Source: a virus
DNA: 31,095 nt
Strand: one strand, 5' to 3'
IMG/VR virus record: IMGVR_UViG_3300025423_000063
Span: 1-31,095 of that record
A model generated the notes under the pieces. It did no database searches. It worked only from the letters and a program-made list of their open reading frames with translations, and was not told where the DNA came from. The position numbers and the translations under genes were made by a program. Shown here piece after piece: positions 19,326-28,069 of this stretch (the first letter of the stretch is position 1; each line of letters begins with the position of its first letter).

Positions 19326-19333
19326 TATAAATA
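19326..19333 (+). promoter_or_regulatory. late-type promoter box for the gp4-tape measure operon
   Basis: An exact TATAAATA, the T4 late promoter -10 element recognised by gp55-RNA polymerase, lies 27 nt upstream of the gp4 start codon in the 45-nt gap between divergent operons. A gp33 co-activator gene is present in the window, which supports late transcription of the T4 type. Confidence 0.75.
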
Positions 19334-26521: not shown

Positions 26522-26992
26522 ATGAATAATTTAAATTATACTGGCTATATTTATATTTGGCAAGATAAAGTTGCCAAATTGAATTATATTGGCGGACATT
26601 ATGGTAAAGTTAGTGACTCATACATATGCTCTAATAAACCAATGAAAAGAGCTTATAAATTAAGACCACATACCTTTAAGTTTAGAGTTTTAGAATATAC
26701 TTATGGTGATACTAAAGATTTAAGAGCAAAAGAACAAAAATGGCTTAATATGATAAAAGATAATGAATTACTTTTATCAGAAAATGTAATTAATAAGACA
26801 GTAAGATATTATAACGTTAAAAAGAATTCTACGGGTGGTAATGGATTTGGAACTAATAAAGGTAAATCTACAATAGGCGGTTGGAATAGAGGTCTTAAAG
26901 GTATTCAAATTTACTCAGAAGAAACTAAACTAAAAATGTCTATGAAAAAGAAAGAGTATTGGGCAAGAAAAAAAAGTGAGCCCGTTATTTAA
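26522..26992 (+). CDS. freestanding GIY-YIG homing endonuclease
   Basis: The 156-residue protein has the GIY-YIG nuclease pattern: GYIYIWQDKV (Tyr-Ile-Tyr at 9-11), NYIGGHYG (21-28), a basic region SNKPMKRAYK and the metal-binding Glu71 in RAKEQKWL. After a Gly/Asn-rich linker the C-terminus (GWNRGLKG, then SEETKLKMSMKKKEYWARKK) is a NUMOD3-type DNA-binding motif. Such Seg-like genes move by cutting phage genomes that lack them. It is the only plus-strand gene between 24.2 and 31 kb, carries its own late-type box and a strong AGGAGA ribosome site, and no interrupted gene or intron is visible. Its last codons overlap the 3' end of the tmRNA gene on the other strand. Confidence 0.85.
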   Translation: MNNLNYTGYIYIWQDKVAKLNYIGGHYGKVSDSYICSNKPMKRAYKLRPHTFKFRVLEYTYGDTKDLRAKEQKWLNMIKDNELLLSENVINKTVRYYNVKKNSTGGNGFGTNKGKSTIGGWNRGLKGIQIYSEETKLKMSMKKKEYWARKKSEPVI

Positions 26993-27011
26993 TAGGGTGG
27001 AGCTCATACCC
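26968..27011 (-). terminator. pseudoknot plus T8 at the tmRNA 3' end
   Basis: On the minus strand an H-type pseudoknot (ACCC/GGGT at 27008-27011 and 26995-26998; GCTCAT/GTGAGC at 27002-27007 and 26976-26981) is followed immediately by eight T (26968-26975). It probably serves both as a tmRNA pseudoknot after the tag and as the terminator. The same bases code for the last residues of the homing endonuclease on the plus strand. Confidence 0.65.
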
Positions 27012-27023
27012 CAGACTCAATTC

Positions 27024-27071
27024 TTAAGCAGCAACTTTCATTGCGGAATAAGGAACGTTGTCGTTGGATGC
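27024..27071 (-). other. tmRNA tag reading frame
   Basis: The frame has 15 codons plus TAA and encodes ASNDNVPYSAMKVAA. The first GCA is the likely resume codon. The final V-A-A resembles the hydrophobic-Ala-Ala degron read by ClpXP. Compared with common alphaproteobacterial tags of the form ANDN...AA it has an extra Ser after the first Ala and an unusual middle (VPYSAMK). Confidence 0.85.
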
Positions 27072-27154
27072 TTTTAACATGCCATTTAGTTTTTTTACCT
27101 CAGTCTCAATCTTATCTTTACTGCACCTGTCGATCCTAATTCACCCCCATCAAA

Positions 27155-27243
27155 GATACACTACGCAGAAGTCTCTAATCTCGCAGCCAAGCAAGCATAA
27201 CATATGACCTCAGTGCACTGATATGTCCAGTATCCAGTGTATC
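27155..27243 (-). repeat. inverted repeat closing the tmRNA intervening segment
   Basis: AGTGTATC at 27236-27243 and GATACACT at 27155-27162 (plus strand) form a perfect 8-bp inverted repeat. In the precursor it extends the acceptor helix past the CCA end and the 5' end of the coding piece. It would hold the two pieces together until the segment is cut out. A 10-nt palindrome, CAGTGCACTG, lies inside. Confidence 0.75.
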
Positions 27244-27317
27244 CATGGTGGAGGTGGAGGGAATTGCACCCTCGTCCAGTACGCCTATTCCATTAGATGT
27301 CAACGACATCGGTACGC

Positions 27318-27348
27318 TATTTATAGTACATTTTAAACAAGAGGTCAA
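27318..27348 (-). promoter_or_regulatory. tmRNA promoter combining sigma-70 and late-type elements
   Basis: On the minus strand TTGACC (27343-27348) is followed after 17 nt by TATAAA (27320-27325), a near-perfect sigma-70 promoter. The -10 is also part of an exact TATAAATA (27318-27325), the T4-type late box. The tmRNA could thus be made early by host polymerase and late by the phage-modified enzyme. Confidence 0.7.
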
Positions 27349-27364
27349 CAATAATATTTAATTT

Positions 27365-28069
27365 TTATAGATTATATTTTAGTCTATACTGCTCTCTAAC
27401 TTCAAGCAATTTAGGTACATAATAATCTCTACGATCTTCAAAGACTTGTGGAAGTTCATTATCTACAGAGATCAAAATTACAATCCTGCTGACAGGTATA
27501 TTATAACGCTCTTCGTACATAATAGCGTACGCAGCAGCCTGACAAAAGTAATTTAGGATGTGATCTCTATTCTTTAGCTTCTTTGCTGTCTTGAAATCAA
27601 TGATAGACAGCTTGCCCTTCCACTCAGCTACACAATCAACGGTACCCGCCATCTTTAAGTAATCTGAGTACAATCTTTCTTCTTGTAAGTGAATATTGTC
27701 TAGATTACGATCTAGTTCTTGTTTAAGTTCTGCAAAGTTGCTAGCGTCATTAAGATCATATTTGCTGGTATCAATAACATCATTGTTGAGATAGTCTTCA
27801 CAGAGTTGATGTATGCGTGTACCTCGAGCTGATGCTTGGCTGCTAACTCTATTTGCTTCTTCATTACCGACTCTAGATCTCCAGGCGTGTATTGCATTTG
27901 CATTCATTAATCCTGTTACAGTTGTTACGGAAGGATAAAGAACTCCGGTAGGTGTTTTGTAGTACCTACCGGAGTCAGTGTTTACTTGTTCAAGTACCTC
28001 TGTAGAATTACGGATCCCTTGGGGGAGGTGCGTGAACGACTTGCGAGTCGTTAAAATATTTTGTAGCAT
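27365..28069 (-). CDS. PD-(D/E)XK (RecB/Cas4-like) nuclease
   Basis: The 234-residue protein has RYYKTPTGVLYPSVTTVTGL (about 35-54), SARGTRIHQLCEDYL (about 80-94), GTVDCVAEWKGKLSIIDFKT with catalytic Asp145, Asp158 and Lys160, and NYFCQAAAYAIMYEERY (173-189), where QAAAY is the usual RecB-type motif IV. This is the exonuclease family common in marine T4-like phages, possibly acting in recombination or degradation of host DNA. The start chosen overlaps the PhoH gene by 62 nt; no ATG occurs downstream until residue 55 (M of GLMNANAI), and that would remove conserved sequence, so the long overlap seems real. The tmRNA promoter lies just after its stop. Confidence 0.83.
   Translation of the reverse strand: MLQNILTTRKSFTHLPQGIRNSTEVLEQVNTDSGRYYKTPTGVLYPSVTTVTGLMNANAIHAWRSRVGNEEANRVSSQASARGTRIHQLCEDYLNNDVIDTSKYDLNDASNFAELKQELDRNLDNIHLQEERLYSDYLKMAGTVDCVAEWKGKLSIIDFKTAKKLKNRDHILNYFCQAAAYAIMYEERYNIPVSRIVILISVDNELPQVFEDRRDYYVPKLLEVREQYRLKYNL

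Follow-up and report, generated by a model that had tools for sequence, protein, structure and literature searches.

The tmRNAs of mycobacteriophages and of Bacillus phage G take, as far as is known, the standard one-piece form, whereas the gene described here is permuted. To our knowledge, no phage two-piece tmRNA has been tested for function. The mycobacteriophage and phage G molecules are, like the present one, phage-encoded (PMC4131195), and mycobacteriophage DS6A encodes a tmRNA relative that consists of the tRNA-like domain only, in contrast to our gene, which has the tag part (PMC4131195). Two-piece tmRNAs were described in T4-like marine phages in the 2022 paper on phage Melnitz, in which a count over the phage genomes public by 2021 gave 53, including 50 marine or aquatic ones (PMC9004378), and the 2025 tmRNA database holds 79 bacteriophage sequences (PMC11915505). 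Pelagibacter phage Mosig, which has an annotated SsrA, and Methylophilales phage Melnitz both match the Rfam family tmRNA_permuted (RF04321). With these precedents, and with many IMG/VR contigs carrying such a gene, the suggestion of the initial annotation that a two-piece form is unusual in a T4-like phage is not supported; the phage two-piece tmRNA is an already known kind of molecule and the claimed novelty fails.

The predicted genes of the window, by which we mean the whole 31,095-base viral record analysed, mark it as a fragment of a T4-superfamily myovirus. They include a single-strand DNA-binding protein, helicase loader, baseplate wedge and hub, tail tube cap, tape measure, PhoH and exonucleases, and for the baseplate wedge protein the nearest isolates, among them Stenotrophomonas, Caulobacter and Rhizobium phages, Melnitz and Pelagibacter phages, are at most 41% identical. 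The minus strand carries, from about 27313 to 26968, a complete tmRNA gene in circularly permuted (two-piece) order and of the alphaproteobacterial type (Table 1). The covariance model RF04321 matched over its entire length (model positions 1-213 of 213) at 27308-27024 (-) with 98.7 bits, the gathering score being 47, and RF01849 (alpha_tmRNA), the top member of its clan, matched over positions 1-355 of 355 at 27352-26975 (-) with 88.2 bits, the gathering score being 50. Independently, ARAGORN called a permuted tmRNA at 27339-26933 (-). A chance origin is ruled out by the E-values of the covariance models (2.7e-18 and 7.3e-23), together with the comparative covariation described below.

Table 1. 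Features of the tmRNA locus and its flank, in window coordinates
Feature	Position	Strand	Basis
PD-(D/E)XK exonuclease, conserved 5' neighbour of the tmRNA	27365-28069	-	PHROG 298, E = 5.3e-69; Pfam PF12705
-35-like TTGACC, sigma70-type promoter	27343-27348	-	direct reading
-10-like TATAAATA, also fitting the T4 late promoter consensus; predicted transcription start ~27313	27318-27325	-	motif conservation
Acceptor piece: 5' strands of helices shared with the coding piece, T-arm, CACCUCC, discriminator A, CCA	27246-27313	-	ARAGORN, Rfam, pairing
Encoded CCA ending the acceptor piece	27248-27246	-	direct reading
Spacer between the pieces, 97 nt, presumably cut out	27149-27245	-	closing stem at its ends
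Coding piece: GGGGGUG 5' acceptor strand (GGGGGTG from 27148), tag frame, pseudoknot, U-run	26968-27148	-	ARAGORN, Rfam, covariation
Tag reading frame ASNDNVPYSAMKVAA, stop TAA	27024-27071	-	ARAGORN
H-type pseudoknot 3' of the tag: S1 27013-27008/26998-26993, S2 27005-27000/26983-26978	26978-27013	-	pairing in relatives
Eight-T run past the pseudoknot, likely transcription end (putative termination)	26968-26975	-	direct reading

The initial annotation, drawn up from the letters of the DNA, had proposed that a T4-like phage here encodes a permuted tmRNA of two pieces and alanine type, and this was upheld in all tests run. Both searches that it suggested gave a call, the two Rfam models over their cut-offs and ARAGORN in permuted form. 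Every element of the layout it named (acceptor arm with encoded CCA, intervening segment, GGGGGTG start, tag frame and pseudoknot) is present on the minus strand, and its range of 26976-27313 is correct for the RNA, with the promoter extending the gene to 27348. The acceptor stem that it described, of 7 bp with the alanine G-U wobble, reads directly as GGGGGUG/CACCUCC, with all seven pairs formed and G3-U70 among them. The roles that the initial annotation put forward, namely redirection of host ribosome rescue, tagging of different proteins or substitution for the host tmRNA, are hypothetical. We place the 5' end of the acceptor piece (~27313) from the position of the promoter. Taken as a whole, the locus is very probably a working alphaproteobacterial-type permuted ssrA gene borne by a T4-like phage.

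Evidence for function comes from the relatives, for which a script pairing acceptor and coding pieces yielded 27 sequences, repeats of the window among them. Across 20 distinct relatives, 95.5% of the cells in the 26 pairs of the tRNA-like domain were paired, a percentage that for the acceptor stem leans to structure because coding pieces were chosen by at least six of that stem's seven pairs. Two-sided changes occurred in 11 of the 26 pairs (46 cells), no shuffle out of 500 scored as high on the three covariation measures, and when the partner strand was slid by 1-3 columns only 39-54% remained paired. Three acceptor-stem pairs changed on both sides, giving the variants GGGGGUG/CACCUCC, GGGGGCG/CGCCUCC, GGGGUCG/CGACUCC, GGGGACG/CGUCUCC and GGGCCGG/CCGGUCC, all of which retain G3-U70, invariant in 20/20 relatives (U-G at columns 53/65). 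Names for the remaining helices came from the known fold. Two-sided changes were also seen in the T stem and in the helices joining the two pieces, although these were unused in picking the sequences; pairing in the outer inter-piece helices was weaker than in the acceptor and T stems, with helix 2 paired at 85%. This pattern indicates that the tRNA-like helices, including the inter-piece helix, are kept by two-sided compensatory changes, so that the predicted structure is under selection. For the pseudoknot after the tag, 100% of cells were paired against 29-55% in slid versions, with two pairs changed on both sides among five distinct sequences, which is modest evidence; some other relatives have a different pseudoknot whose arms are varied yet matching. 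In the literature searched we found no earlier report of compensatory-change evidence for the function of a phage two-piece tmRNA.

The gene order and the spacer suggest that the mature tmRNA is in two pieces. In the window the spacer is closed by a stem between its ends, GATACACT and AGTGTATC, and across 23 distinct spacers the closing helix averaged 9.9 bp as compared to 5.0 bp in shuffles. These helices are built from differing sequences (for instance GATACAC/GTGTATC, AACACTA/TAGTGTT and AAGCATATCC/GGATATGCTT), while spacer length ranges from 26 to 193 nt among relatives and the middles are mostly unrelated. The spacer would thereby act like a discarded segment, free to change yet stem-closed. 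We also note that in one group of relatives (L284, L287, L297, L301 and L318) the spacer, of 180-186 nt, contains an open frame, MIYVRDEGQK...HIASF, some 54 codons long, the stop of which overlaps TTTTTGAT directly before the coding piece; with 15 silent versus 16 replacing codon differences, this frame is only putatively coding.

The tag predicted by ARAGORN, ASNDNVPYSAMKVAA*, ends in hydrophobic-Ala-Ala followed by a stop. Among the relatives fetched by way of the neighbouring exonuclease, 28 of 39 base differences fell at third codon positions, and the codon differences were 28 silent to 7 replacing (pairwise counts, which are mutually dependent), indicating that the predicted tag is constrained at the protein level. 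Members of the family NDNVPYSAMK[IV]AA were found in 40 viral contigs and in 0/385 alphaproteobacterial genomes, in a search that held the amino acids fixed and is uninformative on silent change. From this distribution a phage-specific tagging outcome is possible, in which host adaptors or proteases would treat the phage tag differently and certain proteins would be spared or selected; the presence of the one tag on several different tRNA-like backbones favours it as well. However, the tag begins with NDN and closes on hydrophobic-Ala-Ala as ordinary alphaproteobacterial tags do, which points to degradation by the usual route, and the 385 genomes represent a larger class only by sampling. We hold altered tagging to be unlikely.

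The backbones that share this tag with the window are those of L289, L299, L305, L306 and L314, and near-identical spacers (93-96%) occur with differing acceptor pieces in L298, L299 and L320. Such mixing of tags, spacers and backbones suggests recombination within the tmRNA gene. One might speculate further that a large clade of T4-like phages, with two-piece tmRNAs in which tag and pseudoknot move among tRNA-like backbones and with tags foreign to their hosts, operates its own tagging programme and marks stalled proteins unlike the host does, although we consider this bolder proposal quite improbable.

Upstream of the tmRNA, at 27348-27318, the promoter has the layout TTGACC-N17-TATAAATA. 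An exact TATAAATA stands 20-22 nt upstream of a GTTGA motif in 33/36 distinct relatives, where about 0.8% per locus would be expected by chance, and TTGA[CT]-N16-18-TAnnnT or TATAAA is present upstream in 26 of 30. We dropped a pure T4 late promoter, as most relatives also have TTGA[CT] at a spacing of about 17 nt, which makes a sigma70-type promoter at least as likely. Because the -10 element and the T4 late motif overlap, early and late expression are indistinguishable; for the Melnitz two-piece tmRNA, early use has been suggested (PMC9004378). Elsewhere in the window, back-to-back copies of TATAAATA at 19326 (+) and 19347 (-), between the divergent head-closure and tail-tube-cap genes, fit T4-type late promoters. 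The motif occurs seven times in the window, not clearly beyond chance (random sequences: mean 3.6, maximum 11).

In the working that we propose, host RNA polymerase would make one precursor from the sigma70-type promoter, perhaps with a second transcription late in infection through the overlapping TATAAATA, and host tRNA-processing enzymes would remove the spacer to leave an acceptor RNA and a coding RNA base-paired together. Host AlaRS would charge the molecule, and host SmpB and EF-Tu would deliver it to ribosomes stalled on broken mRNAs, where the nascent protein would gain ASNDNVPYSAMKVAA and pass to ClpXP-type proteolysis. SmpB was found in 0/19 related viral records, a weak result since the records are possibly all fragments, and host SmpB is on that account probably used. 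The putative role is likely to be supplementing host trans-translation during infection, the likely gain being added capacity while mRNAs break down in the infected cell. Alternatively, the tRNA-like RNA might serve as a decoy that sequesters host SmpB or AlaRS and blocks host trans-translation, as has been suggested for the DS6A molecule; a molecule with little beyond the tRNA-like domain does occur in a phage, and strong inhibition of tmRNA is reported for one similar to it (PMC4131195). A decoy would need neither a tag frame, nor a resume codon region, nor a pseudoknot, and all of these are retained here, with change in the tag mostly silent, which makes this alternative very unlikely.

As to distribution, relatives of the neighbouring exonuclease are encoded at 80 IMG/VR loci, and at nearly every closer locus with enough downstream sequence (67-82% identity, L124-L154) a permuted tmRNA lies 3' of the same exonuclease; permuted tmRNAs also occur in many further viral contigs. 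Among the viral contigs retrieved with a T-arm search pattern, ARAGORN also called standard one-piece tmRNAs in L010, L023, L029, L033, L035, L044, L054, L057, L059 and L061, some of which are perhaps false or host-derived. On the far side of the tmRNA a convergent ORF of 156 aa, at 26522-26992 (+) and lacking family matches, overlaps its 3' end, the final codons being antisense to the pseudoknot and T-run; sequence similar to this ORF region also follows the tmRNA in L150 and L285.

A recent host donor was sought and rejected. In a DNA search of 385 alphaproteobacterial genomes only short conserved blocks matched, which argues against a recent copy from any of those sampled. A stricter acceptor-piece pattern matched nothing in the collection of bacterial and archaeal genomes, and the hits of a looser one were chiefly a second Microvirga tmRNA, plus several one-piece tmRNAs in other phyla. 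In a tree of the tRNA-like parts (119 columns, 84 rows, midpoint rooting), which is not strong enough for dating or counting transfers, the window clade groups with bacterial alphaproteobacterial tmRNAs and not with another viral group (100/100 branch). That the gene is a passenger copy or remnant from a host without a role, left for instance by imprecise excision of an integrating element, has in its favour that host ssrA genes often serve as integration sites and that such an origin was considered for Melnitz (PMC9004378), but it is hardly credible for a gene that is intact, carries compensatory changes, keeps its position over divergent phages and matches the closest of the 385 genomes only in blocks of ~40-50 nt at ~80-90% identity. 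Separately, a divergent permuted tmRNA was matched in many Microvirga genomes (L203, L233, L249, L260; G001 C51 and C211). M. calopogonii has it as an additional copy (tag ANDNVDMGAVRLAA, 139 bits) beside another at 319.6 bits, and in another Microvirga strain it lies on plasmid pMVF16-2; this divergent tmRNA may be borne by mobile elements.

The natural variation described above separates the parts that are kept (acceptor stem, G3-U70, tag and pseudoknot) from a spacer that is free, and the large family offers good material for understanding why lytic phages retain a ribosome-rescue RNA of their own. Set beside alphaproteobacterial ssrA (RF01849, RF04321; Caulobacter, for instance), the window gene shares the gene order, helices, G3-U70, encoded CCA, ANDN-type tag and two pieces, and differs in being phage-borne and divergent in sequence (88 bits as compared to 319.6 for a chromosomal Microvirga copy). 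Melnitz and Mosig are also among the closest known carriers, each a T4-like myovirus (Kyanoviridae in records) with a permuted two-piece tmRNA of alphaproteobacterial type, in Mosig likewise near a PD-(D/E)XK nuclease gene. The Mosig tag, however, is GEDNFALAA in place of ASNDNVPYSAMKVAA, and DNA likeness between the two genes is limited to a 60-base stretch. A glutamine riboswitch has been reported for Melnitz and Mosig, whereas none reached threshold near the window gene, nor did one appear between 26400 and 27800 when E-values as high as 5 were allowed; downstream of the tmRNA, the window has the convergent ORF and Mosig a late-promoter accessory gene. What is modestly new in comparison is the large phage clade, apparently undescribed, together with its tag family, which adds a well-supported and apparently functional branch to the phage-encoded two-piece tmRNAs.
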